NCBI GenBank assembly: GCA_021806645.1
Contig: JAJZQX010000004.1
Coordinates: forward strand, 124,001-188,000
Direction: 5' to 3'
Source of the DNA: Myxococcales bacterium
GTDB lineage: Bacteria; Myxococcota; Myxococcia; Myxococcales; Anaeromyxobacteraceae
Length of the DNA stretch: 64,000 nt
Shown: positions 19,829-49,604 of the stretch, piece by piece
Layout: each line of letters starts with the position of its first letter
How positions within the stretch are numbered: the first letter of the stretch is position 1
Translations under genes and position numbers: made by a program
The notes under the pieces: model-generated
The model's database searches: none
Told to the model about the DNA's origin: nothing
The model's input: only the letters and a program-made list of their open reading frames with translations

Positions 19829-19846
19829 CGCCGTCCCTGCAGCACC

Positions 19847-21304
<1,458 letters not shown>

Positions 21305-31482: not shown

Positions 31483-31503
31483 GGGTGACCTCCTGTGCTG
31501 GGC

Positions 31504-31541
31504 GGCACCGCGCCGCCTCGCCCGGAGGGCGGCGCGGTGCC
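31504..31541 (-). repeat. Recurring leader hairpin, copy 5
   Basis: A perfect 14-bp stem, GGCACCGCGCCGCC with GGCGGCGCGGTGCC, loop of 10 bases, ending 21 bases before the GTG start at 31,482 with AGGAGGT between. Confidence 0.8.
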
Positions 31542-31552
31542 GGCCCCAGCCG

Positions 31553-34435: not shown

Positions 34436-34583
34436 GTTCGTGCTCCCCGCCGGTGACCGGAGGACCGGCTTGCCTCTTGCTGAATGGCTGTTATTTGTCT
34501 TCTCATACTGATCCGACTACCTGATGGGTTGCTTCTTGCTGACTGTCAGAGCCGACGGGCACGATCCGGAGCCAGGAGGCCTC

Positions 34584-35084
34584 ATGCCCGACCTGAACGG
34601 CTTCGCCATCTGGATTGGAACGAGCCTCGTCACCGGCCTCGGCGCTCACGCGACCGTCGTCGCGTGGAGGCGGCGCAGCTACTCCAGGCTGCGCCACGAC
34701 TACACGCTCGCCGTCGCCGAGGCCCAGGGCACCGTTTCGGCCGACGCGATCGTCTATGCCGAAGAACTCCAGCGAGCCTTTGCGCGGGCGGCCGTTCCTG
34801 GTTGGTGGGCCGGCCTCACCTCCCACCTGAAGACCGCATTCATCGTCACCGGGCTTCTGGGCGGCGCTCTGCTCGCCCTGGCCGGACGCCTACCACTGGC
34901 GTTCGTCGGGCTCGCGCTGCTGCTCCTGCTCGGCCTGCGACGCCTATTGGTGGCGTCGGCCCTGCTGCTGCTGGTCTTCGTCGTCTCGAGCCTTCTCTCG
35001 ACACCTCGGATGTCGGGCCGCACGCCGACGCCTGTGGCCTCCTCCGCGGCCAACTCGAACAGGGGCCCGGCGCGCTCGCCATGA
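34584..35084 (+). CDS. Island membrane protein
   Basis: A 166-residue protein starting at the ATG at 34,584 behind AGGAGG. A hydrophobic segment lies near residues 6-25, a charged helical part at 30-85, and two or three tightly spaced membrane segments at about 88-145. It overlaps the transglycosylase gene by four bases (ATGA), so both are probably parts of one cell-envelope or transfer function. No family recognised. It is divergent from parA. Confidence 0.6.
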   Translation: MPDLNGFAIWIGTSLVTGLGAHATVVAWRRRSYSRLRHDYTLAVAEAQGTVSADAIVYAEELQRAFARAAVPGWWAGLTSHLKTAFIVTGLLGGALLALAGRLPLAFVGLALLLLLGLRRLLVASALLLLVFVVSSLLSTPRMSGRTPTPVASSAANSNRGPARSP

Positions 35085-35812
35085 TCCTTCCAGCGGTGTC
35101 CATCGCGGCGGTGCTCGCGGCGAGCCCAACCGTGCCCTACGAGGCGGAGATCGGTTCGGCACTGGCCGAGACCGCGGCCATCTATCCGGTCCCTCGGACG
35201 CTGGTCATCGCGGTGATCTCGGTAGAGAGCGGATTCCGGCCCCGTGTGGTGTCGCCCGCAGGAGCCAAGGGGCTCATGCAACTGATGCCGTACACGGCGA
35301 GACGCCTAGGCATCGCCGAGCGAGACCTCTGGAATCCGGCAAAGAACGTCCTCGGCGGAACTAGGCTGCTCGCAGTTCTCCTTCGCCACTACGACGGGGA
35401 CGTCGTTTCGGCGCTCGTGGCGTACAACGCACGGCCTCGACGCCTCCTCGCACCGCTCCCCCAGAATGGCGAGACACCGACTTGCGTCTGGCGGGTCCTC
35501 GCTCGAGCGCGTGCGTTCAGCGCAGCGGAGTCACGCCTTGGCAGAGCGCGCGGAACCGCACACTGGGCACGAGACCCTTCCAGAGCATCCACAGTCCGGG
35601 CAATCACGCCCTCCTGGACCGCCGCAGCTCGGGCAGATCCAATCGGACTCGTTGTCGCGCTGTCCGCCACCACCGCACTGCGAGCAAGTCTCCCAGCCAG
35701 TGCCGTCGCACGTCCTGCATGCAACACTGGAAGTGCCTCCGCAGGAAGGGCAACCAGCGGTAGTCGGGGCGGGCATGGTGTTCACCGAGTGCAGCAAGGA
35801 AGTGCGCGTTGA
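35081..35812 (+). CDS. Lytic transglycosylase (SLT domain)
   Basis: A 243-residue exported protein: signal peptide in residues 1-15, then a soluble lytic transglycosylase domain that cleaves peptidoglycan. The catalytic Glu is in SVESGF (near residue 48), followed by SPAGAKGLMQLMP and the AYNA motif (near residue 118). After about residue 150 the sequence is low-complexity and runs antisense to the zinc-ribbon gene, so the original C-terminus is probably lost or frameshifted. Proteins of this kind open the wall for conjugation machinery (VirB1-like), but no other secretion genes are in the window. Confidence 0.75.
   Translation: MILPAVSIAAVLAASPTVPYEAEIGSALAETAAIYPVPRTLVIAVISVESGFRPRVVSPAGAKGLMQLMPYTARRLGIAERDLWNPAKNVLGGTRLLAVLLRHYDGDVVSALVAYNARPRRLLAPLPQNGETPTCVWRVLARARAFSAAESRLGRARGTAHWARDPSRASTVRAITPSWTAAARADPIGLVVALSATTALRASLPASAVARPACNTGSASAGRATSGSRGGHGVHRVQQGSAR
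35531..35776 (-). CDS. DnaJ-type zinc-ribbon protein
   Basis: An 81-residue protein made almost entirely of CxxC units of the DnaJ central-domain kind: CPSCGG, CRTCDGTG, CSQCGGGG, CPSCGG, CPDCGC and CPVCG, twelve cysteines in six pairs, enough for three zinc ions. It lies on the strand opposite the 3' part of the transglycosylase frame; the dense, ordered Cys pattern argues that this strand is the real one here. The ATG at 35,776 is chosen; a GTG at 35,818 is possible. Confidence 0.6.
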   Translation of the reverse strand: MPAPTTAGCPSCGGTSSVACRTCDGTGWETCSQCGGGGQRDNESDWICPSCGGPGGRDCPDCGCSGRVSCPVCGSARSAKA

Positions 35813-36144: not shown

Positions 36145-38106
36145 ATGACAGGTAGTTCGACCCCGCCCCCAAGTCAGCTGTCATCACCCCAGCGATCCTG
36201 CACTCGCGCTCGGCGGGTCGCCTTGGTCTCCATGCCGTTCGGGCCCGTTGATAGGCCGTCGATTCAGTGCGGCGTGCTGGCGGGCGCGTTAATGCGACAC
36301 GGCCATGCGGTCGATGTTTACCAGTTCGACTTGGAGCTTGCAGCGCAACTCGGACCTCGCGTCTACAACGAGATTGCTGCCCAGCGATCGCAAGGCCACA
36401 TCGGAGACTGGCTTTTCTCTCGCGCCGCATTCGGAGTGTCTTCAGATCCGGAGGCGTATCGCATCGCGTGCCCAGACATCGACACCTCCTGCTCTGGCCT
36501 CGGACTCGCATTTGCTGATCTCTGCTCCCTGCGCGACTCGGTCATGCCTGCGTTCGTGCAGTCTCTCGCCAAGTCAGTCGACTGGGGGGACTACGACGTC
36601 GTCGGGTTCACAACGACGTTCGAGCAGCAGGTCGCATCCCTCGCGATGGCCCGGGCGATACGAGAAGGCCTGGCCGAAAGCCTAATCGTTTTCGGCGGCG
36701 CGAGCGTCGCGGGAGATATGGGCCCCGAGTATCTACGGGCATTCCCGTGGGTAGACGCCGTGGTCCTTGGAGAAGGCGAGGAGGTCTTTCTCTCGATGAT
36801 CGACACACTCGAGACCAATTCGCCGAAAGGCTCCGGGAGCGGCTCGAGCGTGTGGCCGCTACCGGGAATGGCCTGCCGCCTGAACGGCAAGGTTGAGGTC
36901 GGCCCGCCCTCACGCCCTGTCCCTCTCGCCGACATAGCCGACCCTGAGTATGGCGCATACTTCGATACCCTGAAGCGCCTCGGTGCGGCGCGGGTACTCG
37001 GCGAAAGGCGAACTCAGATCCCGTTCGAGGGGTCCCGTGGGTGCTGGTGGGGTGAGCGCCAGACCTGCCGCTTCTGCGGCCTGAATGGAACTTCTGTCTC
37101 GTTTAGGCGCAAGCCCCCTGAACGTCTAAGAGCAGAGATCATCCGCCTCGCCCAGCGACATCGCATGCTGGACTTCGAAGCGGTCGATCGAATCCTCGAC
37201 CTAGACGCCATCGAGACAGTCTTCGAGCCGTTATCGCGCGAGCAGGCCGACTTCTCCTTCTTCCATCAGGTCAAGGCCAGCATCACCCCCTCAGATCTGA
37301 TTAGGCTATCGGCGGCCGGCGTTACCGAGGTGCAGCCTGGCATTGAGAGCCTGTCTACGCGACTGCTCCGCCTCATGCACAAGGGGACATGCTTGCTGGA
37401 GAACCTCCGGTGCCTCGGGTGGGCCAGACACCTCGGAATCCAGGTCGGCTGGAACTTGCTCAGCGGCTTCCCAGGTGAAGCGGCCACCGACTATAGCGAC
37501 CAGGCCAGCCTGGTTCCGCTCCTCCACCACCTTCAGCCTCCGACAGCGTGCGGGCGACTCTGGCTCGAGCGGTTCAGCCCCTACGGGGCGAAGACCACTG
37601 GGTCTTCATTCCAGAATCGGCGCCCACGGGCGGCATACCGCTTCATCTACCCAGAGCACTCCGTAGACCTGGAGCAGATCGCCTACTTTTGGGATTTCGA
37701 ACTTGAGGGCGCCGTTCCCGATCCGGACCTTTCGATGCTGCACCAGCGGGTCGGTGAGTGGCAGCGCCTGTGGCAGGGTCCAGCACAGCCTTGGCTTGAA
37801 ACCAAGCGCGGGCCGGGCTGGACCCAAATTGTCGACGGCCGCCGCCCCAGTTCGCCACGAGAGTACGTGCTGGAGGGCAAGGAGGCTGCCTTCTACTCTG
37901 TCTGCGCTGAGGACTTTGGATCTCCTCGCCGACTTGCTGCGAGGGGCTCGGCCGCCGGGGTCGCCATTGACCCCCAGGCGGCCGAAGAACACCTGCGCCA
38001 CTGGTGCGAGCTCGGGATTGCCGTCGAAGACGGTGGGCGGTTCCTGGCCCTGGCTCTGCCCGCTGCACGCGCTCTTCGCCCCGTCGTTCGGGACGGGAAA
38101 GGATAG
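36145..38106 (+). CDS. Cobalamin-binding-type radical SAM protein (RiPP maturation type 1)
   Basis: A 653-residue protein. Residues 25-210 have the Rossmann-like layout of a B12-binding domain (VALVSMPFGPVDRPSIQCG, then VVGFTTTFEQQ and IVFGGASVAGDMG). The radical SAM cluster motif is C300-x7-C308-x2-C311 inside GCWWGERQTCRFCGLNG, the hallmark of the family called RiPP maturation radical SAM protein 1, thought to be peptide C-methyltransferases. A C-terminal domain of about 150 residues follows. It opens the operon and ends six bases before the HxsD-like gene. Usual partners of that family (nitrile-hydratase-type leader peptides) are absent, so its substrate may be the His-Xaa-Ser peptide. Confidence 0.85.
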   Translation: MTGSSTPPPSQLSSPQRSCTRARRVALVSMPFGPVDRPSIQCGVLAGALMRHGHAVDVYQFDLELAAQLGPRVYNEIAAQRSQGHIGDWLFSRAAFGVSSDPEAYRIACPDIDTSCSGLGLAFADLCSLRDSVMPAFVQSLAKSVDWGDYDVVGFTTTFEQQVASLAMARAIREGLAESLIVFGGASVAGDMGPEYLRAFPWVDAVVLGEGEEVFLSMIDTLETNSPKGSGSGSSVWPLPGMACRLNGKVEVGPPSRPVPLADIADPEYGAYFDTLKRLGAARVLGERRTQIPFEGSRGCWWGERQTCRFCGLNGTSVSFRRKPPERLRAEIIRLAQRHRMLDFEAVDRILDLDAIETVFEPLSREQADFSFFHQVKASITPSDLIRLSAAGVTEVQPGIESLSTRLLRLMHKGTCLLENLRCLGWARHLGIQVGWNLLSGFPGEAATDYSDQASLVPLLHHLQPPTACGRLWLERFSPYGAKTTGSSFQNRRPRAAYRFIYPEHSVDLEQIAYFWDFELEGAVPDPDLSMLHQRVGEWQRLWQGPAQPWLETKRGPGWTQIVDGRRPSSPREYVLEGKEAAFYSVCAEDFGSPRRLAARGSAAGVAIDPQAAEEHLRHWCELGIAVEDGGRFLALALPAARALRPVVRDGKG

Positions 38107-38112
38107 GCCACT

Positions 38113-38412
38113 GTGGAGTTCTCAGTTTCCTGCGATGTATACAATCGTGCGGCCGTACTGCTGTCAGTCCAACGGTATCTTGCGGCTTGTTGGGTCACCA
38201 TCGCGGCGTCCAGCACGGGATGGACCGTGACGATCCGCCCGAAGCAACCAGGCATCACCGCGCCCACCAACGAGCAGTACTCGAACGCGCTGGTGGAGGC
38301 CGCCTTCCTCGAGCAACGCGCCCGCGAAACTCTGCCACTGAGGCATGCGATGCTCGCCCACGCGCTCAAGTCGGCCAGTGCGGCGCGAGCCGCGCCAGAC
38401 CAAGAGCACTGA
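38113..38412 (+). CDS. HxsD-like partner protein
   Basis: A 99-residue protein starting with GTG, directly between two radical SAM genes (gaps of six and three bases). Its layout, an N-terminal strand then VQRYLAACWVTI, a strand pair, and a helix EAAFLEQRARETLPLRHAML, resembles HxsD of the His-Xaa-Ser maturation system, a small partner always found beside HxsB-type enzymes. Similarity is by pattern, not measured. A role in peptide binding or presenting the substrate is an inference. Confidence 0.55.
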   Translation: MEFSVSCDVYNRAAVLLSVQRYLAACWVTIAASSTGWTVTIRPKQPGITAPTNEQYSNALVEAAFLEQRARETLPLRHAMLAHALKSASAARAAPDQEH

Positions 38413-38415
38413 TCA

Positions 38416-40068
38416 ATGCTCCTTGATCGCACTATCTATCCCCGCTCCATGCTGGAGCGTCACCTGGGGGTGGGTTCCATCCACACAGAAGGCGACAACT
38501 GGAACGTACCCGAGCACCTTGAAGCAACCGTGCTCGACGCACTCACGCGCTGGCTCGCTGAGGCCGCCGACTGCTCGATGGATCTCACGCCCGACCCAGA
38601 TGGCCTCCGAACCGGCGAATCAGAGCCGCACTCCGTCGGCATCCCATTGAGCGGCATCCAACTGCCCGCCTTCAACCACTACCGCACCACCGAGCTCAGC
38701 GCCGGCATACATTTCACATCGGTCGACACGGGCAGTTGGACCCTCCTGACGGATGCCGAACTGGCACTACTCAAGCACTCTCGGCCGAACGAGTTGCCCC
38801 TTCCGCTAGCGGACAAGCTTGACCGATCCTTTATTCGCCTGACCTCCGAGAATCTCACCGCCTTTTCGGATCGGCTTTCTAGGCACTATTCGTTTCTGTC
38901 GTGGGGGCCCACGCTGCACATCATCGTGGTCACGCGACAGTGCAACCTGCGGTGCGTGTATTGCCAAGCCGCGAGCGGTCCGGACCGTAACGAGCACATG
39001 AGCGTCGCGACGGCGCTCACCGCGGTGGATCGAGCCTTCGAGACTCCAGCACGTTCTCTCACCTTGGAGTTCCAAGGCGGCGAGCCGCTGCTGGCGTTTC
39101 CCGTCGTCGAGGCCGCCGCAAAACACGCAGTGGCCCTCGCCTCAAAGACCTCGAGGCACCTCCGACTCTGTATTGTATCGAACTTCACCGAGCCCGCCCA
39201 AGAAGAGCGGCTAAGAGCCCTGATCCGCCTCGGCTTCAGCTTTTCCGTATCTGTCGATGGCCCGGCTTCGGTTCATGACACGAACCGCGGTGTCGGACGG
39301 CACGGCTGCTTCTCCGCTGTGGAAGCCAACATCCAAGCATTCCGGCGCGTCTGGGCCGAGGAACATCCGGGCCCACCTGAAATAGGCGCCCTGCTGACCA
39401 CCACCCGCGCGTCACTCACACTAGCGCGCGACATCGTCGATACGTACCTCGACCTCGGATTCGGTTCCGTCACCATCCGCCCACTCTCGCCGTTCGGGCG
39501 CGCGCCTGGGATAGCGCCGCAACTCGACTACGAGGTTTCCGAGTTCCTGGACTTCTGGAAGGACATCTTGGCGTACGTCTTCGAGCTCAGGAATAGCGGG
39601 AGGGACGTACGAGAGGGCGCCCTCGACCTCATCCTCCGGAAGCTCTTTGGCCGGGATGCTCACTTCATGGATCTGCGCTCGCCGTGTGGCGCTGCGTTCG
39701 GTCAAGTCGCGTACGACGTCAACGGGGACGTGTACACGTGCGATGAAGCGAGGATGGTTGGAGGCGATCGCTTCCGCATGGGCCCGCTGGCGATGCCTTT
39801 GATGACTCTGCTGAGCTCGCCAGCTGCCACGCGGACCGCTGCCGCATCGATGGCCGAAGCATCTTGGTGTGACCACTGCGCCTTCGAGCCGTTCTGCGGC
39901 GTGTGCCCCGTGGTCAACCACGCCGAGGCGGGGGCGCTAGTACACAACGTGCTTGCGCAACGGCGCTGCGCCATCCAAGCAGGCATGACCCGGCACGTCC
40001 TCGAGCTATTTGCACATGATGCTGACGCACGAAGACATTTCGCAGCGATGGCTGAATCTGCCTTCTGA
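38416..40068 (+). CDS. HxsB-like radical SAM/SPASM maturase
   Basis: A 550-residue enzyme. Residues 1-165 form an N-terminal, possibly peptide-recognising region. The radical SAM motif is C176-N-L-R-C180-V-Y-C183 inside LHIIVVTRQCNLRCVYC, followed by EFQGGEPLLAF. The C-terminal SPASM-type region has CGAAFG, YTCDEA, CDHCAFEPFCGVCP and a last CAIQAG, for auxiliary Fe-S clusters. The LHiivvT...CnlrCvYCq and EFQGGEPLL wording is that of HxsB, the His-Xaa-Ser peptide maturase. It is followed after 108 bases by the peptide gene with His-Xaa-Ser motifs, which makes that peptide the likely substrate. Confidence 0.8.
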   Translation: MLLDRTIYPRSMLERHLGVGSIHTEGDNWNVPEHLEATVLDALTRWLAEAADCSMDLTPDPDGLRTGESEPHSVGIPLSGIQLPAFNHYRTTELSAGIHFTSVDTGSWTLLTDAELALLKHSRPNELPLPLADKLDRSFIRLTSENLTAFSDRLSRHYSFLSWGPTLHIIVVTRQCNLRCVYCQAASGPDRNEHMSVATALTAVDRAFETPARSLTLEFQGGEPLLAFPVVEAAAKHAVALASKTSRHLRLCIVSNFTEPAQEERLRALIRLGFSFSVSVDGPASVHDTNRGVGRHGCFSAVEANIQAFRRVWAEEHPGPPEIGALLTTTRASLTLARDIVDTYLDLGFGSVTIRPLSPFGRAPGIAPQLDYEVSEFLDFWKDILAYVFELRNSGRDVREGALDLILRKLFGRDAHFMDLRSPCGAAFGQVAYDVNGDVYTCDEARMVGGDRFRMGPLAMPLMTLLSSPAATRTAAASMAEASWCDHCAFEPFCGVCPVVNHAEAGALVHNVLAQRRCAIQAGMTRHVLELFAHDADARRHFAAMAESAF

Positions 40069-40126
40069 TAGAAATTGGTCCGAATGAGGTAGAGTCGGCC
40101 TGTGGTGGTTCGAGTCCTTGAGGTGT

Positions 40127-40149
40127 GAGGATGGGAAGGGCCCATCCTC
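40127..40149 (+). promoter_or_regulatory. Hairpin upstream of the precursor peptide gene
   Basis: GAGGATGGG and CCCATCCTC are perfect 9-bp arms around AAGGG. It ends 27 bases before the peptide ATG and could protect the 5' end of a processed peptide mRNA. Confidence 0.55.
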
Positions 40150-40176
40150 CGTAACGCAGGCAACCAAGGAGGGAAG

Positions 40177-40359
40177 ATGTCCGACCAGAAGAAGAAGCAG
40201 GACGTCGCCAAGGACCTTGCTGAGGTCGAGCTCGCCAAGGATGAGATCCTGGCGAAGATCGCAGCGAAGATCGGCGCTAACGGGAAGTCGGAGGGGTCGG
40301 CGGTTTCCGCCCACGCCTCCCATGCCTCCGGGTCTAAGCACAACTCGATCACGCATTAG
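40177..40359 (+). CDS. His-Xaa-Ser precursor peptide
   Basis: A 60-residue peptide with a strong AAGGAGGG site. Residues 1-37 look like a leader: Lys-rich start, then an amphipathic helix (DLAEVELAKDEILAKIAAKI) and GANGK. Residues 38-60 look like the core, Ser/His-rich with His46-Ala-Ser48, His49-Ala-Ser51 and His55-Asn-Ser57, ending in His60. There is no Cys. His-Xaa-Ser repeats are the defining substrate feature of Hxs radical SAM systems, and the HxsB-like gene lies directly upstream. The gene is set apart by 108 and 263 bases of noncoding DNA with hairpins on both sides, which fits higher expression than the enzymes. Confidence 0.8.
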   Translation: MSDQKKKQDVAKDLAEVELAKDEILAKIAAKIGANGKSEGSAVSAHASHASGSKHNSITH

Positions 40360-40374
40360 GCCTGTCAAGGTGCT

Positions 40375-40432
40375 GCGGTCCGGGCCGGAGGTCTCGGATC
40401 CTCTTTAGGCTCCGGATGGCCGCCCGGGCCGC
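40375..40432 (+). terminator. Attenuator-like hairpin after the peptide gene
   Basis: GCGGTCCGGGC pairs with GCCCGGGCCGC (one G-U), with an inner CGGAG-CTCCG stem. It sits 15 bases after the peptide stop and lacks a T-run, so partial termination between peptide and downstream enzymes is likely rather than a full stop. The remaining gap to 40,622 shows no gene. Confidence 0.5.
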
Positions 40433-40622
40433 ACACCACCGAAGCTAGTAGCAGCGGTACGGGCATCGCCCCTGATCGACTCACGTCATCCACCGGCACT
40501 TGCCTGCAAGCCTTCTGGGGTTCCGCTTAGCGCGTCCTGCATGAGTGACTGGGACGTTAGGTGCCTATTGCACCACGTGCTTTTTGCAGGTTGGGGGTCT
40601 CGGCTCGAGCGGAGGTGCGCTG

Positions 40623-42656
40623 ATGGAGGTCGCCGATTTGAGAACCGTCAACCCGTTCCCGACCTTGCCTCAGACAGTGGCGCTCGAGCTATCCTCGGCG
40701 TGTCGCCTGGCGTGCAGATACTGTGATCGAAGGAACTGGACCCGGCTTGGGATAGAGCGCCGCCGTCCCTTTCTAGATGTTGACCTCTACCACGCCCTGG
40801 TCGAGGAGCTCTCCGCGGCTTGGCCCCGTCCCGCCTTGACGCTGTCCTTTGAAGGTGAGTCGGCACTACACCCAGACTTCTCCGCCATGCTCGCCTTTGC
40901 CGCCGAGCATGGCTTTCGTCCCTGGATCTCCACCTCGCTCGTGGGAGTAGACGAGACGGCGCTGGCCGCAATGGCCGAGCACTCAGGAACCATCTCAGTT
41001 TCACTGGACGGCCTTGAAGGTGACTTCCTCCGCCAGCGCGGCAAGGCGTACTCGCAGGTCACGGCCTCACTTGAGCGGCTCATCGAGCTTAGCGCAGCTC
41101 GCCCGGCTCGGCCCAGGCTCAGCGTGACCATGGTTACGGAGGGAGCCCATCATGTTGGCCCCAACTCATACGCGTTTCTTGAGCGGTGGCTTCCACTCGT
41201 CGACGAAGCCCATTTGTTTGAAGAGCTGCGCTGCGCGGAAGGCATCCGAGTTCCGCCGAGCGCAGGGCTTCATCGCCACCTCGCCAGGCGCCGGCGCTGC
41301 CATCAGCCGTTCGCGTTCTTGGCGGTGCTGTCCGACGGCCGCCTATGCCCATGTTGTACCACGAGCCGCGTGCGGTTCCCCGACCTCCATGCCGGAGTTG
41401 GCCTGCAGGCCGCCATCAACAGCGTCGAGTACCAAGAGTTCCTTGCCCGCCACCGGCACATGAACCTTGACGGCACAGCCTGCGCCACCTGTGAGGGATG
41501 GATCGAAGGCTGGCTTGCTGGAAACGAAGGGACAGTTGCAATCAACGAGCGGGCGGCCAAGACCCAGGGCGACGGTCTCGGCCTCCACATCACTGGCCTG
41601 CGCGGGCCTACAGCCCATAGACACAGTCGTGGGTCCCTTCCGTCACTAGGAATTGGCACGCGTGCAGGTTGGGGCCAAGGTGGCCTCACCGGTGCGGCAA
41701 CTGCGATGGAGGAGGGAACGGCGAACGATGCGGCCTGCCTCGTGGAGATGGCCTTGTGCTCCGGCCTTACCCTGTTCGACACCTCACCTGAGTTCGGAGA
41801 CGGCACCACACAGGCAGCACTCGGCGCGGCCCTTGCCGACGCATTGAGCCGTGGGCTTGCCCACCCAGATGATTTGTTTCTAGTTGGCCGAGTCGGACGC
41901 CTACCACCGCCTGCTGGTCGCGGGTCATACCTTTCTGATTCGTTTGCCTGGCCGGAACTCTGCTCGCCCGATGAAGTTCTGCCGGGCCAGAGGTGCTTTG
42001 GATCTCGATGGGTTCAGGAATCGATCAGACGCAGCCTTGCTGACCTGCGCGTCGCTCGAATCGACCTGATGCTCCTGCAAGCCCCCGAGTGGCTCCTGAT
42101 GAAGTCTGGGCCAGCCCGGGGTCGAGAACTGCGCCGACTGATCTCCACGATGGAGGAAGAGCGCTCCCGCGGGCGCGTTGGAGCGTACGGCATCTCAAGC
42201 CACATCGGACTCCTTTCCACTCGCAACCATCGACTTCACGTTGAGATCGAGGAATTTGTTCAGGCAGCACGCGAGGTCGCAGGTAGTTCCCACGGCTTGC
42301 GCGCCGCGGCCGTTCCCTTGAACCTCGAGACGGTAGCGGCCGCGGTCGAGCCGAGGCAAGAATGGGCTGGCCGCCCAGTCTCGCTACTGGACGCCATACG
42401 CGAAGCGGAGTTGGATCTCATCGCCGCTGCCCCGCTAGGGCGCGGGCGGCTGGTTCGCAGCCTTCCCGCTGGCACGATCGAGGAGACTGGGCGCACCTAT
42501 ACCCCTGCCCAGTGGCTGATTCAGTTCGTGCGCTCCCTCCCCGGCGTGAGTTGCACGGTATTCGGGACATCTCGCTGCTCCCACGTGATCGAAGCCACGG
42601 CTGTGCTCGCGGATCCCCCGTGGAGTGCCGACACTATCAAGAGGATTGCCCTGTGA
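40623..42656 (+). CDS. Radical SAM / aldo-keto reductase-fold fusion
   Basis: A 677-residue two-domain protein. Residues 15-260 are a radical SAM domain with C27-x3-C31-x2-C34 (CRLACRYC) and later Cys-rich segments (CHQPF, CPCC, CATC) resembling a SPASM-type end. Residues 335-677 have an aldo-keto reductase barrel: GIGTRAGWGQGGL, LFDTSPEFGDG, IDLMLLQAPEW, GAYGISSH and TVFGTS. Of the reductase tetrad only Asp386 is kept; the expected Tyr is Phe391, Lys is Arg423 and His is Gln486. The barrel is therefore unlikely to be an active oxidoreductase and may bind substrate or nucleotide. The start is set by GGAGGTG before the ATG. Its stop overlaps the next start (GTGA). Confidence 0.82.
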   Translation: MEVADLRTVNPFPTLPQTVALELSSACRLACRYCDRRNWTRLGIERRRPFLDVDLYHALVEELSAAWPRPALTLSFEGESALHPDFSAMLAFAAEHGFRPWISTSLVGVDETALAAMAEHSGTISVSLDGLEGDFLRQRGKAYSQVTASLERLIELSAARPARPRLSVTMVTEGAHHVGPNSYAFLERWLPLVDEAHLFEELRCAEGIRVPPSAGLHRHLARRRRCHQPFAFLAVLSDGRLCPCCTTSRVRFPDLHAGVGLQAAINSVEYQEFLARHRHMNLDGTACATCEGWIEGWLAGNEGTVAINERAAKTQGDGLGLHITGLRGPTAHRHSRGSLPSLGIGTRAGWGQGGLTGAATAMEEGTANDAACLVEMALCSGLTLFDTSPEFGDGTTQAALGAALADALSRGLAHPDDLFLVGRVGRLPPPAGRGSYLSDSFAWPELCSPDEVLPGQRCFGSRWVQESIRRSLADLRVARIDLMLLQAPEWLLMKSGPARGRELRRLISTMEEERSRGRVGAYGISSHIGLLSTRNHRLHVEIEEFVQAAREVAGSSHGLRAAAVPLNLETVAAAVEPRQEWAGRPVSLLDAIREAELDLIAAAPLGRGRLVRSLPAGTIEETGRTYTPAQWLIQFVRSLPGVSCTVFGTSRCSHVIEATAVLADPPWSADTIKRIAL

Positions 42657-43687
42657 CAGCGCCCGCCGATGGTTCTCGCGGCGATTCGCCGCACAACAAG
42701 GCTTTGCCCGGTGTCGAAGAACTGAAGATTGAACTCACCGACGCATGTCAGGCCAACTGTTCCTTCTGCCACCAGCGCGGCGAGCGTTCGGCCCGCGGCG
42801 GTCACCTTGGCGAAGCCATCGCGCGCGAGTGGATCGACTGGGCATCCTCGCAAGGCATCGGGACAGTGCGCTTCACGGGTGGAGAGCCCACGCTCCACCC
42901 GGCTCTTCGGGACCTCTGCGCACATGCCAAGTCGCTCGGCATGGAGACCATCGTCAACAGCAACGGCATTTACGGCTACTCGGTGGTTCACGCGATAGCA
43001 AGTACGGTGGATACGCTCAAGATCAGCCTACCCACGCTCGATTCGTCCGCTTGCGATACCTTGACGGGGGTGAGTAACAGCCTGGGCCGCAAGATGGAGA
43101 CCATTGCGCACGCGCTTGAGCTGGGCATGGAAGTCGAGATGCTGACCGCCATGGTAAGAGAGAATGTTGGTCACGTTGAGGCCTTCCTTGACGTACAGGA
43201 GGACCTCGTCGGAGCTCGATGGGTCCCACTTCGCCTGGAGTCGTCGCCGGATTGCCCTCGGCCGGTAGAGCGGGGCTGGCTTCAGCAACTGGCTGAGGAG
43301 ATCGAGAGGGCCATGCTCGCTCGGCCAGGGCGTGTCCCGCGGCTTCACTTGGCCACCCCGTTCTGCGCCGTACGCCCAATCGAGCTCGGCGCACGCGTCT
43401 TCAGTGGGAGGGCCGATGACTGTGGCCCCTTCCACAGCCTGACCGTGACGTCGAACGGCAGCCTCGCGGCGTGTTACTCCTGCCGCCAGCCCATCCCACG
43501 GCGTGCCGGACTTGTCGAGTTGCAGGATGAGGCTGAGGTGGCCGGCCTCGTGAACCTAGATCGCCTACCCGCTCCCTGCCGCGCGTGCCAATGGGTCCAG
43601 CGCTGCATGGGGGGCTGCGCAAGCCCCTACAGCACCGTGGAGTTCCCGGGCGGGGGACGCCTCGACTACCTCGCGGAGCCAGAGTGA
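42653..43687 (+). CDS. Radical SAM protein with C-terminal Cys cluster
   Basis: A 344-residue enzyme. The core motif is C32-x3-C36-x2-C39 (CQANCSFC), with FTGGEPTLHP and a typical radical SAM half-barrel to about residue 220. The C-terminal part has CGPFHS, CYSCRQP and C-x2-C-x5-C-x3-C (CRACQWVQRCMGGC), consistent with auxiliary Fe-S clusters as in peptide-modifying SPASM or twitch enzymes. It starts at a GTG overlapping the fusion gene and overlaps the protease gene at its end, so all three are translationally coupled. The reaction is unknown; it is not clearly HxsC. Confidence 0.85.
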   Translation: MTAPADGSRGDSPHNKALPGVEELKIELTDACQANCSFCHQRGERSARGGHLGEAIAREWIDWASSQGIGTVRFTGGEPTLHPALRDLCAHAKSLGMETIVNSNGIYGYSVVHAIASTVDTLKISLPTLDSSACDTLTGVSNSLGRKMETIAHALELGMEVEMLTAMVRENVGHVEAFLDVQEDLVGARWVPLRLESSPDCPRPVERGWLQQLAEEIERAMLARPGRVPRLHLATPFCAVRPIELGARVFSGRADDCGPFHSLTVTSNGSLAACYSCRQPIPRRAGLVELQDEAEVAGLVNLDRLPAPCRACQWVQRCMGGCASPYSTVEFPGGGRLDYLAEPE

Positions 43688-44319
43688 ACTGCAACGCCGA
43701 CCGGCCGAACAGCAACGCGCCTGGAGGTCTCTTCGGCAGCCTCATCGAGCCGGGGGATACGCCGACTCTGTTCGTGGGGGCGCGTAGTGGCGTAACAGCA
43801 TCGGCCCGCTGCTTTCGGTGGCGCTGGGGAGTGGACGGGGGATTCGATCCCGAAGTTCGAGCCCTGCTAGGTGACACCGAGCCTGAGGAGGCCTTCCACG
43901 ACACCGCCGACATCGTGGAGGAGGTCCTTGGGCTTCGCCCGGCTGGGATTAGGATGTTTTCGGAGGATCTTCAGTTCGCGAGAGCGCAAGGAGCCAGGTT
44001 CGAGGGTGGCTCGCTGGGTGTCGCGTTTCTTCTGGGCGCACTTTGCTGGGCTGATCGGAGACAGTGGCCTGGCCGAGTCGTTGCCTGGGGGGCCATCCAG
44101 CCCGATCGCAACGGCACGTGGAAGCTCGTGCCAACATCGAATACGGCCCCGAAGGTAATGCTCGCCCGTCACCTGGGCGCGGACGCGATTGTTCGCATCG
44201 CTCGAGATCCGGTGCCCGGAAGTCGGCCCTTCCCACGACCGATCTCGATCCAAGCAACTGACGGCATCGACGCAGCACTTGAGCTGCTCGAGTACCTCCG
44301 GGATGGGACGCTGGCGTGA
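43684..44319 (+). CDS. Stand-alone Lon-type (S16) protease domain
   Basis: A 211-residue protein with the fold pattern of the proteolytic domain of Lon. The nucleophile lies in FEGGS110LGVAFLLGAL, matching D-G-P-S-A-G-V-A of Lon; the general base is Lys157 in APKVMLARHLGADAIVRI, 47 residues later (43 in E. coli Lon). The strand between them (VVAWGAIQPDRNGTWKLVP) matches the Gly-rich G-x-I-x-x-x-G-x-x-x-P-V of the family. There is no ATPase domain. Within an operon of peptide-modifying enzymes it is the best candidate for leader removal. It is coupled to both neighbours by four-base overlaps. Recognition is from motifs alone. Confidence 0.7.
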   Translation: MNCNADRPNSNAPGGLFGSLIEPGDTPTLFVGARSGVTASARCFRWRWGVDGGFDPEVRALLGDTEPEEAFHDTADIVEEVLGLRPAGIRMFSEDLQFARAQGARFEGGSLGVAFLLGALCWADRRQWPGRVVAWGAIQPDRNGTWKLVPTSNTAPKVMLARHLGADAIVRIARDPVPGSRPFPRPISIQATDGIDAALELLEYLRDGTLA

Positions 44320-46034
44320 CCTTGGCACACCAGTCCTCATCTTCGCCGTGCCTGGTGGAGGCGTGGCGTCCACTAGAGCGCCATGGTCGCCTGACAGTAG
44401 ATGTCGGGCCTGACTTCTGCGCCGCCGACCGGAGTGCCGTCACTTCCGTTCGCTTCGCGGCGCGCGGCTTGCTGCAGGCTCCAGTCTCAGGCCTTGAGCC
44501 CCAACCTCCCTCCCTATTGGATCTCCTTCGACGCTCAAGAGTGGCCTGGTTGGATCTGGGTTGCCAACCGGTGAACGATTGGCTGCTGTTCAGGAGGCAC
44601 TGGGAGGCGTTCCTAGAATTCGTGGAGCGATTCAGCCCCAATGCCGAGGGCGTTGGCCTGACGGGATTGGCCCTGTTGATCCCTGGAGATGTTCCCGGCC
44701 ACATTTCCGCTGAGTTCGTAGGGCAGCTCGTCCCCACACGGTTCAGTGAGCGATGGATAGGTGTGCCCATCGCTGTCGAGCATGCCGCGTGGTACACGTT
44801 GGCCGGCCACGTTGCGAGAGGCGTCCGCTTCCGGCCATACGACGCCTATAGAGACTTGGGCTTCAGGATCCAGGGCGAGCTATCTCGCCGTAGCCTCCGG
44901 CGAGCCGACGAGTTGGACTCCTCCCTGCTTCCGGGGCTCAGTGCTTCCGAGCGGCTCGGTGAGTTCCTATCGCTGTTGCCCCAGATGGATCGACTGCGCT
45001 TCGCGCGAAGAGTTCCTTCTCGCGGGATCGTCAGTTCCTTGATCATGAAGCGCCGGAGACGAATTGCTTCATCTCCTTCCGCGCAACCGGCGAACGCGCC
45101 CCGGGCGCCTCGATCCAGGGCCACAACCTCCTCCCAGAGGGATATGTGGCGGGAAGCAGTGAGCAGTGGCCTCCTGAGCGAGTTCGAGCGTGTCGAGCTC
45201 TTGCTCGTTGCGAGCGGGCTTCGGACCGCCATGCGTACTCAAGCAGACGATGCCCGGCTACCACATCTACGGCGCCTACTGAACCGCCTGGGTCTCGCGC
45301 ATGCTTGGCGTGTCCGAATGGTGCAGGCAGCGCGGGACAAGGGGAAGGGCGGGTTTTCGAGTGTTTACTCCTCCTCGGAAGACCCCTCTGTCCTCCGCCC
45401 TCAGCGGTTCGGGTACATCGCCCCCACGAAGGACCTGGCACGTCGGGCTATGGAGCTTGAGGACGCTGGAGACGACGATCGGTTCGGCGAGATCCTTGGC
45501 TACCCCGCCTGCTGCCGAAGCGCCTTTCGAAGGAACTTCCAACTTGCGCTCAAGAGAGGGCAAGGTGACGTTGCGCCCCTCGTCGTCGACCAAACCGTTA
45601 GCAAACGCGGTTGGCCCTGTTCCCTGAACATCGGCGCATGGTACTTCCACGCGGGGCTCGTCAACTTCTTCCCATGCTCGTTCGACTGCGCCGCCGCACG
45701 CTCTATAGGCACAGCAGCCTACGCGGCCCTATCTAGGCTTCTTCCGAGAGAGGCGGAGGCATTGAGAGGACTGCTGCGGTCTCCCGTTCTCTACTCTGAG
45801 TTCCGGGGCGTGTTTCTTCTATCAGGCGCTTGTACCCGCTCCGACGGTGTCGTCACTTATCGTCAAGATCGGATATTGGCCACGACTACTTCTAGCCTTA
45901 CTCGGCTACTCGCTATGGGGGACACGATTGTCGCCCACGATATCGACAACTTCGAGGTGCTTCGCGGTGATGCTCGCGTCGGTTCGGTAAGTGGCCGACG
46001 GGTGCGCCTCCTTCGCTTCTCCGATGACCCATGA
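44316..46034 (+). CDS. Large GYPxCC-module protein
   Basis: A 572-residue protein of unknown function starting with GTG. The N-terminal 370 residues have no recognised domain, with a basic linker near residues 248-275. The C-terminal region carries G395-Y-P-A-C-C400 and, 54 residues later, P-C454-S-F-D-C458; the next protein has the same pair of motifs. Four ordered cysteines suggest a metal or Fe-S site. It overlaps the protease gene upstream and the paralogous module downstream by four bases each, so equal production of the set is likely. I recall similar GYPxCC motifs in uncharacterised DUF proteins but cannot assign a family. Confidence 0.65.
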   Translation: MTLAHQSSSSPCLVEAWRPLERHGRLTVDVGPDFCAADRSAVTSVRFAARGLLQAPVSGLEPQPPSLLDLLRRSRVAWLDLGCQPVNDWLLFRRHWEAFLEFVERFSPNAEGVGLTGLALLIPGDVPGHISAEFVGQLVPTRFSERWIGVPIAVEHAAWYTLAGHVARGVRFRPYDAYRDLGFRIQGELSRRSLRRADELDSSLLPGLSASERLGEFLSLLPQMDRLRFARRVPSRGIVSSLIMKRRRRIASSPSAQPANAPRAPRSRATTSSQRDMWREAVSSGLLSEFERVELLLVASGLRTAMRTQADDARLPHLRRLLNRLGLAHAWRVRMVQAARDKGKGGFSSVYSSSEDPSVLRPQRFGYIAPTKDLARRAMELEDAGDDDRFGEILGYPACCRSAFRRNFQLALKRGQGDVAPLVVDQTVSKRGWPCSLNIGAWYFHAGLVNFFPCSFDCAAARSIGTAAYAALSRLLPREAEALRGLLRSPVLYSEFRGVFLLSGACTRSDGVVTYRQDRILATTTSSLTRLLAMGDTIVAHDIDNFEVLRGDARVGSVSGRRVRLLRFSDDP

Positions 46035-46933
46035 CCAGCCATCTGGCGGACCTGCTGCTGAATCTCCACGACCGAGTGCCCGCTGTCTCGTTGGCCAACG
46101 TCGTCGAGATTCTCGCTCTCGTCGACGGAGTAAAGCCTTGCGTTCGCCTCCTCCTGGACTCCAGAGATGAAGGCTTCGTTCGTTCCACCTTGGAGGCCAG
46201 AGGTTTGTATTGCGCGGCCTCACCCAAGCGCCTTCGAGTTCACGCCAGTACGGCTCTCGGCGACGGCTACCTCGAGCCCGCTCCAGAAGGCGACCCGGAT
46301 GCGCGGGTCGAACTTATGGTCGCTCGGGAACAGATCGCCGCCGAGAGAGCTGCCTCGACACAGAGCGGGCTGGTTTCCCCTTCCCTCGGCCTCTTGCTCG
46401 GATATCCCCATTGCTGTGTTGCCGCACAAGAGCGCCAAACGGGCGTGCCGGACTGGGTCCGAGACCTACTCGTTGCGACACCTCGTGCCCACATCTACCC
46501 GTTCGGCGCGAACCGCTTCGCCTACCTGTTCAGCGAACATGCGCTGGGCTTCGACTACTACCCGTGCACATTGAATTGCTCAAGGACTGTCGACATCGCC
46601 CTTTCGACGCGGAAGGTGCTTGTCGACCATGGCCTTGCTGCGTTCGCGGATCGGGCGGAAGCGGGGATGCGTGCTCCAATACTCGTCCTGCGCGGGGTTT
46701 TGGTACGCCCAGCCCGATGGTGGCGCACCGCCGACGCAGGCACCGCCTGTCAACTTGCAGGCGCGGACATGCGTGGGTGGAAAGTCGGGCGGGGAGCCGA
46801 GGATGATCCTGTCTGGAGTTCTTCGACGGTAGAGCGCCTTCCAGATGGCACCATCCGATTTCACAGGCCGGACATCGGCGTGCTCGAGGTTGCCGAGGGC
46901 GACGTAGACAATCGCTTTCTCGTGTTCGGGTAG
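46031..46933 (+). CDS. Small GYPxCC-module protein
   Basis: A 300-residue paralogue of the C-terminal half of the preceding protein. It has G124-Y-P-H-C-C129 and P-C179-T-L-N-C183, 50 residues apart, with a shared segment of mixed hydrophobic and aromatic residues between them. The last 60 residues (residues 235-300, ending IGVLEVAEGDVDNRFLVFG) resemble the end of the larger protein (DTIVAHDIDNFEVLRG), supporting a common origin. The start at 46,031 overlaps the upstream stop (ATGA). No function is known; a metal-dependent or cluster-carrying role in the pathway is an inference. Confidence 0.65.
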   Translation: MTSHLADLLLNLHDRVPAVSLANVVEILALVDGVKPCVRLLLDSRDEGFVRSTLEARGLYCAASPKRLRVHASTALGDGYLEPAPEGDPDARVELMVAREQIAAERAASTQSGLVSPSLGLLLGYPHCCVAAQERQTGVPDWVRDLLVATPRAHIYPFGANRFAYLFSEHALGFDYYPCTLNCSRTVDIALSTRKVLVDHGLAAFADRAEAGMRAPILVLRGVLVRPARWWRTADAGTACQLAGADMRGWKVGRGAEDDPVWSSSTVERLPDGTIRFHRPDIGVLEVAEGDVDNRFLVFG

Positions 46934-46970
46934 GGCGCCCAGCCAAGGGTCGGCTAGGTACGGAGGGAGC

Positions 46971-48785
46971 ATGCCGGCGAAGATCTCGGGCCAAAACGAA
47001 GTAGTGGTGGTCGAACCTCCGTTCTTGGAGCCTTCACTCCTCCGACCTGAAGCCCACCGGATCGCGCGCATGATCGGCGCCTCGGGTATCGAGTCCCGAG
47101 TGCTGGACATCAATCTCGCCCTGTACCTCGCGATACTGAGCGAAGCCGGCAGTAGACCGCTTGTCGGTGGACGCGACGTTGGGCGTACTGGGCTCTTGGC
47201 GGATGCGATTGCGCGAGCCTTCTTCGTGGATCCGGAGCAGCTCCGACTGGCGGTTGATCGCAGGAGTAGCCTGCCAGGCGACGTGCCGCAGGCGGTCATC
47301 CCGGCCATGCGCGACGATGATGGCGAACCGCTGCGCTTAGCGGTCGCCTCCGCGCTGCACCGGGTCGCTGGGCGCGCTGCGTGGCAGGGACATGCCCAGT
47401 ACGTGCAGGATGTCGAACTGCTGAATGCAGCAGTTCACTTTCACGGTCGTATGGTGGCCAGGGAGCTCACGTTAAGTCTGCACGGCTGCGAAATGGGCGA
47501 GGACATCACGTCTTCGGCAGAGGTACTTTCGCTCCTCCGTAACCCTTCGAACCCGCTCCTTCGTCTATTTGATCGGTACCTCGGTCTGGACACGCTCGCC
47601 TCCAAGTTTGGGCAAGCGAGGGTAGTATTGGTCATTTCGGAGGAGCCACAGCTTGTCCCTGGTCTCGCGCTGGCTGCTTGGTTGAAGAGTCGGCTTGGCC
47701 TTCGCGTTGCGATCACTGGAAGCCACGTTGACTTGGTGATGTCGCTGAGTTTCCCGAACCTTGCCGGGCTCGTCGATGAGGTCATCGCACACCGTTTCGA
47801 GTACGGCGGGCCCTCCTGGCTATTTGGGGAAAGCCATCCGCTTGTAGTAACGATAGACGGGCTGACACGAAGACCATACCCAGCTTTTTTGAGCGCGAGT
47901 CGGCTTCGGCCTCAGCCTTCATTGCCAGGAATCGTCCCAGTGGTATTTCCCGGCGACTACTTGTCCCCTCTGCCCTTGGTAGGAGCCACCGTCACATCGC
48001 GTTGTTACTGGGCGAAGTGCAGCTTCTGCAGCATCTCAACTGGCCGTGACTACCCGTTCGCTCACCTCGCACCAGATGCCCTCTTGAAGTCGCTGAGGCA
48101 GCTGTCGGATGTGGGCGTCGAGCACCTCCAGTTCATGGACTACGCCTTGCCACCTCGCCTGTTGCGCGCCATCGCCGAGGGTGGACCTACGGGGGTTCGG
48201 TGGGCTGCGCAGGTACGCTTCGAGCGAGCGTTCGAAGATCCCCAACTGTTTTCGAGGCTCGCCGTCGCCGGCTGCGTGGCGTTGTGCTGGGGTTTTGAGA
48301 GCGCAAGCGAACGCGTCCTGGCGCTTAGCACCAAGGGTGGCCTAACCGACCCTCACTCCCGCGCGCGAGTCCTCAAGGCCTCTGCCGATGCTGGCATTCT
48401 GAACGGTCTCTTCGTCATCGCCGGCCTCCCAGGCGAGAGTCGTGATGACTTCGAGCGGACCGCTGACTGGCTGGCCAGCAACGCCAGCGCCATCTCCTTC
48501 ATCGAAGCGTACCCGTTCCAGTTGAGGCCCCAGTTCGGTCGCGGCGCGAATGACGAACACGAAGTCCGCATGCATGGACCGCTAGCCTCGAATGGGAGGC
48601 CACCATCCATCGGTGATTGGGCGCTCGAGCTTCCCAGCGATGGCGTCCAAGGCGTTCCGAGTGCCACTGACCGCCTTAGTCGGGCAGACATCCTTGGGCG
48701 TGCCTTTGCCTCACTGCCAAGCCGGTCAAGGACCAACGATTGGTTGGAAGGGCACTTGTCGCTGGCTAGGACGCTCGTGGCATGA
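46971..48785 (+). CDS. Second cobalamin-binding-type radical SAM protein
   Basis: A 604-residue protein. Residues 10-300 include a B12-binding-like Rossmann region (VVVVEPPFLEPSLLRPEA, VVLVISEEPQLVPG, VAITGSHVDLV). The Fe-S motif is unusual, C345-x4-C350-x2-C353 (CYWAKCSFC), in a position equivalent to the CWWG...C-x2-C of the first radical SAM protein. GLPGES and a typical barrel end follow. It closes the cluster; 37 bases separate it from the preceding gene. Enzymes of this layout often methylate unactivated carbons or rearrange rings. Which step it takes here is unknown. Confidence 0.8.
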   Translation: MPAKISGQNEVVVVEPPFLEPSLLRPEAHRIARMIGASGIESRVLDINLALYLAILSEAGSRPLVGGRDVGRTGLLADAIARAFFVDPEQLRLAVDRRSSLPGDVPQAVIPAMRDDDGEPLRLAVASALHRVAGRAAWQGHAQYVQDVELLNAAVHFHGRMVARELTLSLHGCEMGEDITSSAEVLSLLRNPSNPLLRLFDRYLGLDTLASKFGQARVVLVISEEPQLVPGLALAAWLKSRLGLRVAITGSHVDLVMSLSFPNLAGLVDEVIAHRFEYGGPSWLFGESHPLVVTIDGLTRRPYPAFLSASRLRPQPSLPGIVPVVFPGDYLSPLPLVGATVTSRCYWAKCSFCSISTGRDYPFAHLAPDALLKSLRQLSDVGVEHLQFMDYALPPRLLRAIAEGGPTGVRWAAQVRFERAFEDPQLFSRLAVAGCVALCWGFESASERVLALSTKGGLTDPHSRARVLKASADAGILNGLFVIAGLPGESRDDFERTADWLASNASAISFIEAYPFQLRPQFGRGANDEHEVRMHGPLASNGRPPSIGDWALELPSDGVQGVPSATDRLSRADILGRAFASLPSRSRTNDWLEGHLSLARTLVA

Positions 48786-48976
48786 CCGGACCGGAGCCGA
48801 CCACCCCCTCGCGGCATCGAAATCTCGTAGCGGTGTGTGCCTCTTCGGTCAGCGGCGTGGCGATGCTGGCGCGGCTGGATTGGACCGACCGGCTAAGGGC
48901 CCGGGGCGTTCGGCGGCGGCGCGGAGAGGCGCCCAGGGTCCGCACCATCGCTGGGCATGGGTATCTGGCGGCGAGG

Positions 48977-49123
48977 TCAACTGCCGATTCGGGCGACGAT
49001 GACCCCCAGCGCCTGCTCGAGCAGATGCTTAGCTCCCTCGAAGTCGCCGGTCCGAGCAGTCTGGATGGCGAGCGTCACGCTGGTCTCGACGAGCCGCACG
49101 ACGGAGTCCGCGACCGGCGGCAC
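48977..49123 (-). CDS. Short open frame at the island edge
   Basis: A 48-residue frame from a GTG at 49,123, which could start further upstream. The ending LVETSVTLAIQTARTGDFEG and the following ALGVIVARIGS look protein-like (amphipathic helices). It may be the 3' remnant of a gene cut by recombination at the tRNA fragment next to it. No family recognised. Confidence 0.3.
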   Translation of the reverse strand: MPPVADSVVRLVETSVTLAIQTARTGDFEGAKHLLEQALGVIVARIGS

Positions 49124-49195
49124 AGTACTGGCCGCAGCCTCCGCACCGGGCGTCGTCGATTTTGGTGCGCCGGTGGTGCGCAGCGCACCATCCGG

Positions 49196-49247
49196 AAAAG
49201 AAGAAGGCCGCGTTCCGTCGGTTTCCCGAGTGGAATCGCGGCCTTCT
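49196..49247 (-). terminator. Terminator of the truncated tRNA-Pro(CGG)
   Basis: AGAAGGCCGCG and CGCGGCCTTCT are perfect 11-bp arms. On the minus strand a T-rich tail (TCTTTTCC) follows. The loop shares CGGGAAACCG with the terminator after tRNA-Pro(GGG), suggesting that the two tRNA loci are related. Confidence 0.7.
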
Positions 49248-49250
49248 GAG

Positions 49251-49293
49251 TCGGGGAGACAGGATTTGAACCTGCGACCCCTTGGTCCCGAAG
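49251..49293 (-). pseudogene. 3' half of tRNA-Pro(CGG)
   Basis: Read on the minus strand it contains the anticodon loop TTCGGGA (anticodon CGG), the 3' anticodon strand CCAAG, the T-arm GCAGG-TTCAAAT-CCTGT, the acceptor strand CTCCCCG and discriminator A. The 5' half is missing: the next bases rightward do not provide CTTGG or the D-arm. This is the usual trace of an element that integrated into a tRNA gene; the intact copy would lie to the right, beyond this window. Confidence 0.75.
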
Positions 49294-49430: not shown

Positions 49431-49604
49431 GTGGTGCAAGCGGAGCCGGACGACCTTCTGACCGTTCTGGAAGTCGCCGCCCGGCTCCGCGTCTCCCGTG
49501 CAACAGTCTACCGACTCGTCCGCGCCGACGTCCTGCGTGCTGTCCGGATCTCCAACTCCGTCAGGATTCCCGTTCAGGCGCTCGAAAGGGTTCTCGCGCG
49601 CTGA
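49431..49604 (+). CDS. Excisionase-like HTH protein (second element)
   Basis: A 57-residue protein from a GTG at 49,431 (another at 49,434), consisting of one helix-turn-helix with a wing: LTVLEVAARLRVSRATVYRL then RADVLRAVRISNSVRIPVQALERVL. It is the classic excisionase domain. The frame remains open upstream into the tRNA fragment, so an earlier start cannot be excluded. It lies 138 bases from the tRNA break, as expected for a gene at the end of an integrative element; no integrase is near it. Confidence 0.65.
   Translation: MVQAEPDDLLTVLEVAARLRVSRATVYRLVRADVLRAVRISNSVRIPVQALERVLAR

Follow-up and report, generated by a model that had tools for sequence, protein, structure and literature searches.

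The His-Xaa-Ser (Hxs) systems, HxsA to HxsD (TIGR03976-TIGR03979), are widely annotated, yet no product chemistry for them was found in the open-access papers searched. Chemistry on residues spaced in the same way is known from the triceptide maturases HaaB, ScaB and MscB, radical S-adenosylmethionine (SAM)/SPASM enzymes that join an aromatic residue i to the Cbeta of residue i+2 (PMC11002830). HaaB and ScaB were shown to make C2(His)-Cbeta(Ala i+2) bonds, and MscB a C4(Phe)-Cbeta(Ser i+2) bond (PMC11002830). Here we describe a cluster of ten genes (g1 to g10) at positions 36145-48785 of a 64-kb window, the whole stretch of DNA that was analysed, which is contig C8:124001-188000 of a 4.14-Mb Myxococcales genome and to which all coordinates refer unless a contig is named. 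We judge it somewhat probable that the cluster is a divergent, horizontally acquired member of the His-Xaa-Ser group of ribosomally synthesized and post-translationally modified peptide (RiPP) loci, working as the pathway proposed below. An earlier sequence-only reading of this DNA had called the pathway undescribed, and no paper on it was found among the open-access papers searched.

Gene content, gene order and family relations were obtained directly. All ten open reading frames (ORFs) lie on the + strand and every frame is open. The gathering score of PF04055 (Radical_SAM), 29.5 bits, is passed by exactly five proteins (g1 with 39.3, g3 with 51.4, g5 with 34.0, g6 with 59.0 and g10 with 33.8 bits), in agreement with the sequence-only reading, which had seen a single-direction cluster of ten genes with five radical SAM enzymes. 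As it had also noted, five consecutive genes, g5 to g9, are coupled by four 4-bp overlaps (g5/g6, g6/g7, g7/g8 and g8/g9). The spacing is 6 bp between g1 and g2 and 3 bp between g2 and g3, and the peptide gene g4 is flanked by a 108-bp gap before it and a 185-bp gap after it. The features of the cluster are:

36145..38106, + strand: g1, RiPP-maturation radical SAM C-methyltransferase (TIGR03975 542.3 bits, cut-off 281.85; PF04055)
38113..38412, + strand: g2, HxsD-like small protein (TIGR03976 27.8 bits, E 2.5e-6, cut-off 50)
38416..40068, + strand: g3, divergent HxsB-like radical SAM/SPASM maturase (TIGR03978 352.0 bits, E 5e-105, cut-off 370)
40177..40359, + strand: g4, putative precursor peptide of 60 aa, MSDQKKKQDVAKDLAEVELAKDEILAKIAAKIGANGKSEGSAVSAHASHASGSKHNSITH (ORF, ribosome-binding site, motif positions)
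40360..40544, + strand: gap with a strong stem-loop at ~40367-40440 (fold of 40345-40560)
40623..42656, + strand: g5, radical SAM/SPASM-type domain (CRLACRYC) fused to an aldo/keto-reductase (AKR) domain (PF04055 34.0, PF13186 23.2, PF00248 47.2 bits)
42653..43687, + strand: g6, radical SAM/SPASM-like protein (CQANCSFC), not HxsC (PF04055 59.0 bits)
43684..44319, + strand: g7, candidate Lon-like serine protease (Ser110 within GGSLG, Lys157; pairwise alignment with the genome's own Lon)
44316..46034, + strand: g8, 572 aa, unassigned N-terminal part and C-terminal GYPxCC (DUF483-like) module (PF04467 20.0 bits, cut-off 25)
46031..46933, + strand: g9, GYPxCC (DUF483-like) protein of 300 aa (PF04467 20.7 bits, cut-off 25)
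46971..48785, + strand: g10, B12-type-like radical SAM protein (PF04055 33.8 bits)

The small peptide encoded by g4 has three His-Xaa-Ser (HxS) motifs, as was claimed earlier. HAS at 46, HAS at 49 and HNS at 55 all fall in the final 15 residues of the peptide, which ends in ...HASHASGSKHNSITH, and three motifs were reached by 0.6% of composition shuffles. Since g4, with these motifs and a strong ribosome-binding site ahead of its start (AAGGAGGGAAG-ATG), sits in the operon, a RiPP pathway of the His-Xaa-Ser group is favoured. The peptide lacks a signal peptide and has no Cys, which excludes thioether chemistry of the sacti- or ranthipeptide type. No family match at E<1 was found for it in Pfam or NCBIfam, and despite its three HxS motifs it is unlike the HxsA peptides of the phylum, which are twin-arginine translocation (Tat)-like HCSHGSHGS...W or HGS-repeat peptides. 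The fold of 40345-40560, 3' of g4, has an energy of -96.9 kcal/mol (z -2.58), a stability equalled in 0 of 200 shuffles. The stem-loop could possibly cut read-through from the peptide into the enzyme genes, and a layout with a strong ribosome-binding site before g4 and a hairpin after it would raise peptide output over that of the enzymes. No Rfam families were found within the cluster.

HxsB and HxsD are the closest curated families of g3 and g2, in line with the HxsB-like and HxsD-like proteins of the earlier claim; the next-best family for g3 after TIGR03978 reaches 111 bits. The g3 protein carries CNLRCVYC and seven SPASM-type Cys, and forms a lone long branch among the HxsB proteins of the phylum, with a best identity of 37%. 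Its probable partner is g2. No HxsC partner was found among the ten genes (for g6, HxsC is outside the best 25 families and HxsC4 scores 34.4 bits against a cut-off of 500), nor was there any HxsA family match in the cluster. Judged by its proteins, the cluster is a RiPP-type locus and not a canonical Hxs system, though the nearest families of g2 and g3 are still HxsD and HxsB.

Of the remaining radical SAM proteins, g1 is a TIGR03975 C-methyltransferase by curated score, covering profile positions 1-606 of 606, with a cluster motif of the form CX7CX2C (CWWGERQTCRFC) and a weak B12 domain (PF02310, 25.5 bits against a cut-off of 32.1). In g10 the motif is CX4CX2C (CYWAKCSFC). It scores 44.1 bits with TIGR04479 and 28.0 bits with TIGR03975, both far under the cut-offs, and is not a second TIGR03975 member; it resembles PhpK- and TIGR03975-type enzymes only within the radical SAM part, and no recognised B12 domain was found in it. 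The earlier claim of two B12-type radical SAM proteins was thus borne out weakly for g1, and for g10 it came down to a likeness of the radical SAM domain. The best relative of g1 in the phylum (L107, 39% identical) was rejected as a relative of the cluster; it belongs to a different cluster and adjoins a DarW-like radical SAM protein and a YcaO protein, not HxsB. The further SPASM-like radical SAM protein claimed earlier is g6, for which the best NCBIfam match is MoaA (73 bits).

The fusion of a radical SAM domain to an AKR domain in g5 is real, but its reading as a reductase was not supported. The tetrad of the AKR domain, obtained directly, is Asp-Phe-Arg-Gln, with three of the four catalytic residues lost (Y>F, K>R, H>Q), whereas in the alignment Asp-Tyr-Lys-His is kept by stand-alone AKRs of the same order that are 30-35% identical to g5. 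Two further relatives also keep all four residues. Because its tetrad reads D/F/R/Q, the domain appears unlikely to be active as a reductase. The start of g5 is more likely the ATG at 40623, behind GGAGG, than the GTG at 40545. In a comparison set of 195 genomes of the same phylum (Myxococcota), which also underlies the comparisons below, no other radical SAM-AKR fusion was found with full g5 at E<=1e-8; stand-alone AKRs are common in the phylum, and no full-length g5 was found in plasmids. A weak PADLOC match suggesting a viperin-type defence protein was rejected as general radical SAM likeness.

The Lon-type protease of the sequence-only reading would be g7. Aligned with one Lon of the same genome, g7 had a local score of 46, which none of 500 shuffles (mean 29.5) equalled; in this alignment GGSLG falls on GPSAG, and the Lys residues of APKVMLA and KEKVLAA are paired. 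With the second Lon of the genome the score did not stand out, being equalled by 119 of 500 shuffles, a profile-profile comparison with Lon gave no significant match, and no Pfam family, PF05362 included, matched g7 at E<=10. On this sequence evidence a Lon-like g7 is plausible. The two proteins that follow do share a Cys module as claimed, GYPxCC and then C-x3-C (CC at 399-400 and C-x3-C at 454-458 in g8, CC at 128-129 and C-x3-C at 179-183 in g9), and are related in BLASTP (g9 to g8, 1e-6), although both miss the gathering score of DUF483 (PF04467), 25 bits. Sequence searches of the PDB with g7 or the GYPxCC profile returned nothing. No P0009 relative was found in plasmids and no GYPxCC relative in viral contigs.

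A neighbourhood search with the GYPxCC proteins had been suggested along with one for the fusion. The recurrent pairing with HxsB was seen directly: by profile search GYPxCC is present in 15 genomes of the phylum, 14 of which also have HxsB, itself present in 45 of 195 (Fisher p 2.6e-9, with related genomes not being independent). GYPxCC followed by C-x3-C was seen in 22 further phylum sequences, some of whose loci overlap. When genome contigs were scanned with the two GYPxCC proteins, the sole matches were a Woesearchaeota contig, whose genome has no HxsB, and a proteobacterial metagenome-assembled genome (MAG), in which GYPxCC adjoins a radical SAM gene in a region dense in radical SAM genes and in which HxsB scores 528 bits. 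In the locus L040, from an uncultured proteobacterium MAG, the GYPxCC protein is surrounded by radical SAM ORFs, five or more in number and in several cases HxsC4-like; its gene overlaps by 4 bp the preceding 497-aa ORF, whose product has no NCBIfam match and is radical SAM-looking, and a 161-aa protein with a Tat-like start lies nearby. An HxsB-like match was present in 442 plasmid records.

Two kinds of related loci were found. In three genomes (G112, G124 and G126) conserved clusters with short HxS peptides (L061, L063 and L106) hold a metallo-beta-lactamase-fold protein, an alpha-ketoglutarate (aKG)-HExxH hydroxylase (TIGR04267 82.8 bits, cut-off 40), HxsB (309.6 bits in G126), a spiroSPASM-like radical SAM protein, GYPxCC, the peptide and MacB/FtsX permeases. 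HxsB, a radical SAM protein like g5 (8e-9 to the radical SAM domain of g5) and GYPxCC are consecutive, with the peptide nearby; the peptides are 58-63 aa long with HSS near the end, finishing in VHSSYGDGDGWI or similar, ...HSSYGDGDGWI. A sister cluster (L062, G145), without GYPxCC or the spiroSPASM-like protein, has two peptides ending HTSHTSDGWF. These clusters are possibly an unnamed RiPP class with an exporter. The other kind are HxsB loci with ~8-11 radical SAM ORFs, in G086, G088 and the genome of the cluster itself; all these counts are approximate, as they were made with a home-made profile on stop-to-stop frames. In 20 kb around HxsB, L053 (G088) has ~11 and L058 (G086) ~8 such ORFs, with GYPxCC present. 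The second Hxs locus of the same genome (L036, C9:203000-222000) combines HxsB (500.9 bits) with an HxsC4-like protein that scores 438.6 bits against a cut-off of 500, several more radical SAM ORFs and an HCSHGSHGS...W repeat peptide. Contigs C127 and C38 of G064 (L134 and L057) both end within an HGS repeat and are probably the two halves of one split locus; read jointly they have GYPxCC, a g10-like radical SAM protein (4e-21), HxsC-like radical SAM proteins, HxsA, HxsB (493.3 bits) and HxsD (56.8 bits).

From these relations we infer each chemical step, the leader boundary and the roles of the protease and the GYPxCC proteins. The precursor would be g4, with residues 1 to ~36 as its leader and the remainder as the core. 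Three His-Ser crosslinks made by g3 with g2 are proposed because the HxS geometry matches three-residue cyclophanes and both His and Ser are documented partners; by analogy, His(i) would most likely be joined to Ser(i+2) in HAS, HAS and HNS, at about -2 Da each. Methylation of unactivated carbons of the g4 core, +14 Da each, would be the task of g1 and possibly also of g10. As additional radical SAM modifiers, g5 and g6 are less certain candidates, as is g10, and the AKR-fold domain of g5 is probably a binding or scaffold domain and not an active reductase. A metal or Fe-S centre aiding the radical SAM enzymes would probably be held by g8 and g9 through CC/C-x3-C, and g7 is the likely protease that cuts off the leader. 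A bolder version, in which GYPxCC is an unrecognised metal/Fe-S component needed for HxS maturation, the cluster makes three His-Ser crosslinks and C-methyls, and the fused, non-reducing AKR domain binds the substrate, we offer tentatively and consider doubtful as a whole.

The surroundings of the cluster suggest that it was probably acquired horizontally, as was proposed earlier from its lower G+C, which is 61-65% in the individual genes and about 69-75% in the DNA around them. Third-codon G+C is mostly 67-75% in the cluster and 0.85 in the short gene g4, against 0.92-0.96 at third positions of efflux-type genes downstream. A frame at 48782-49249, for which no Pfam family matched, was left out of the cluster. 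The neighbouring features are:

49190..49292, - strand: displaced 3' segment of tRNA-Pro(CGG) and the sequence that follows it (matches the intact gene, on contig C27, at 87% over 103 bp)
49431..49604, + strand: excisionase-like helix-turn-helix protein (HTH_17), a mobile-element remnant (PF12728 43.8 bits)
19076-21304, - strand: frame with a tyrosine integrase domain (residues 362-406), upstream of the cluster
19847-19921, + strand: tRNA-Pro(GGG), which adjoins the tyrosine integrase frame
21853-23034, - strand: IS481-type transposase, between integrase and cluster
29782-31716 and 32566-34506, - strand: two ParB-like proteins, between integrase and cluster
34484-35812, + strand: SLT transglycosylase, between integrase and cluster

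The tRNA-Pro(CGG) piece, which follows within ~400 bp of the cluster end, is taken as a remnant of site-specific integration. Its orientation is opposite to that of tRNA-Pro(GGG), which misfits a simple single integration. Another tRNA-Pro 3' fragment, at C8:316212 (L045), has the same orientation as the tRNA-Pro(GGG) at 19847, and it may mark the distant boundary of a large integrated element, about 172 kb long. Two flanking genes were tested and neither was present in the three other genomes of the genus; with flanking genes of such patchy occurrence, it was not possible to demonstrate an empty integration site.

Several observations weigh against the proposed pathway. Neither an Hxs product structure nor HxsB chemistry was found in the open-access papers searched, and the curated scores are missed by g3 for HxsB (370 bits) and by g2 for HxsD (50 bits); with such scores, and with g3 alone on a long branch, the chemistry of g3 may have changed. 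Nothing related to the ten genes as a set was found, so there is no conserved precursor family with which to test core residues, and the leaders of the HSS peptides resemble that of g4 weakly (27 of 3000 shuffles did as well when three sequences were compared, and 64 of 3000 when five were). The AlphaFold models, made for g9 with five sequences (predicted local distance difference test (pLDDT) 42.5) and for g7 alone (pLDDT 35.5), had low confidence and were unusable, and no exporter or immunity gene was found within the cluster. This last absence, whereas the HSS-peptide relatives carry MacB/FtsX permeases, would suit a small intracellular redox cofactor derived from the peptide, as in the case of pyrroloquinoline quinone (PQQ) or mycofactocin, with SPASM enzymes trimming or rearranging the core and the protease freeing the product. 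The short g4 without a signal peptide and the SPASM-type enzymes would fit as well, but no candidate dehydrogenase or other client enzyme adjoins the cluster and the threefold HxS motif points to a longer core that is modified repeatedly, and we regard such a cofactor as unlikely. A RiPP C-methyltransferase is not known to belong to PQQ/mycofactocin-type pathways, which also counts against it.

It might also be argued that unrelated radical SAM modules were gathered on a mobile island, and that the peptide is modified by g1-g4 alone (or by g2-g4) while g5-g10 serve another pathway. The 185-bp gap and strong hairpin after g4 mean that g5-g10 may form a separate unit, and the region is rich in mobile-element genes. 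Some of the genes do occur separately elsewhere, an outcome that the sequence-only reading had named as counting against it: TIGR03975-type enzymes are found in 48 of the 195 genomes, AKRs stand alone, and archaeal GYPxCC occurs without HxsB. On the opposing side, HxsB, GYPxCC, a g5-type radical SAM protein and a short HxS peptide occur together in other genomes, a g10-like radical SAM protein and GYPxCC lie in the HxsA locus of G064, and G+C is even over all ten genes, which makes such a mixed island quite improbable. That the cluster is a decaying, inactive remnant could be suspected from the mobile-element remnants and the tRNA fragment close to it, yet all ten frames are open, the 4-bp overlaps, the Cys motifs of the radical SAM proteins and the GYPxCC cysteines are preserved, and g4 has a strong ribosome-binding site, which leaves this very improbable. 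An ordinary canonical HxsABCD system, to which only the closest curated families of g2 and g3 point, is scarcely credible given the missing HxsC, the lack of an HxsA family match, the sub-cut-off HxsB and HxsD, a precursor unlike the Tat-like HCSHGSHGS...W peptides and the six further genes.

The proposed His-Xaa-Ser pathway is of interest for a precursor short enough to be counted out, for the way GYPxCC is paired with HxsB, and for an AKR domain that has been repurposed. The cluster has a single precursor, which is short and carries just three HxS motifs where the HGS-repeat precursors are long, so the mass shift per step should be countable, and because the cluster links an uncharacterised cysteine-module family to HxsB, the role of the GYPxCC/DUF483-like family becomes testable.

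With the HxsA-D systems the cluster shares an HxsB-like maturase, an HxsD-like partner and an HxS-motif peptide, but its HxsB and HxsD are below the cut-offs, HxsC is missing, the precursor is short without a repeat tail or Tat-like leader, and there are six extra genes. The likeness to the triceptide maturases would be one of chemistry only, and g3 is nearest to HxsB. The short HxS-peptide clusters have in common with it HxsB, a g5-like radical SAM protein, GYPxCC and a peptide of ~60 aa that has HSS or HTS close to its C-terminal end; they add the metallo-beta-lactamase-fold protein, the TIGR04267 hydroxylase and the MacB/FtsX permeases, lack the TIGR03975, Lon-like and AKR parts, and have their HxsB in another clade than g3. 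The loci dense in radical SAM genes (L036, L053, L058 and L057+L134) likewise combine HxsB with many radical SAM proteins, with GYPxCC in three of the four and a g10-like protein in one, but they differ in having HxsC/HxsC4-like enzymes and, except for L053 (none seen in the stretch read), an HGS-repeat HxsA. The claim that the cluster is far more elaborate than HxsA-D is therefore true against the curated families, but loci of this density around HxsB recur in Myxococcota, one of them in the same genome. With elaborate Hxs loci thus a repeated theme of the phylum, the cluster is an unusual variant of that theme and not a categorically new system.

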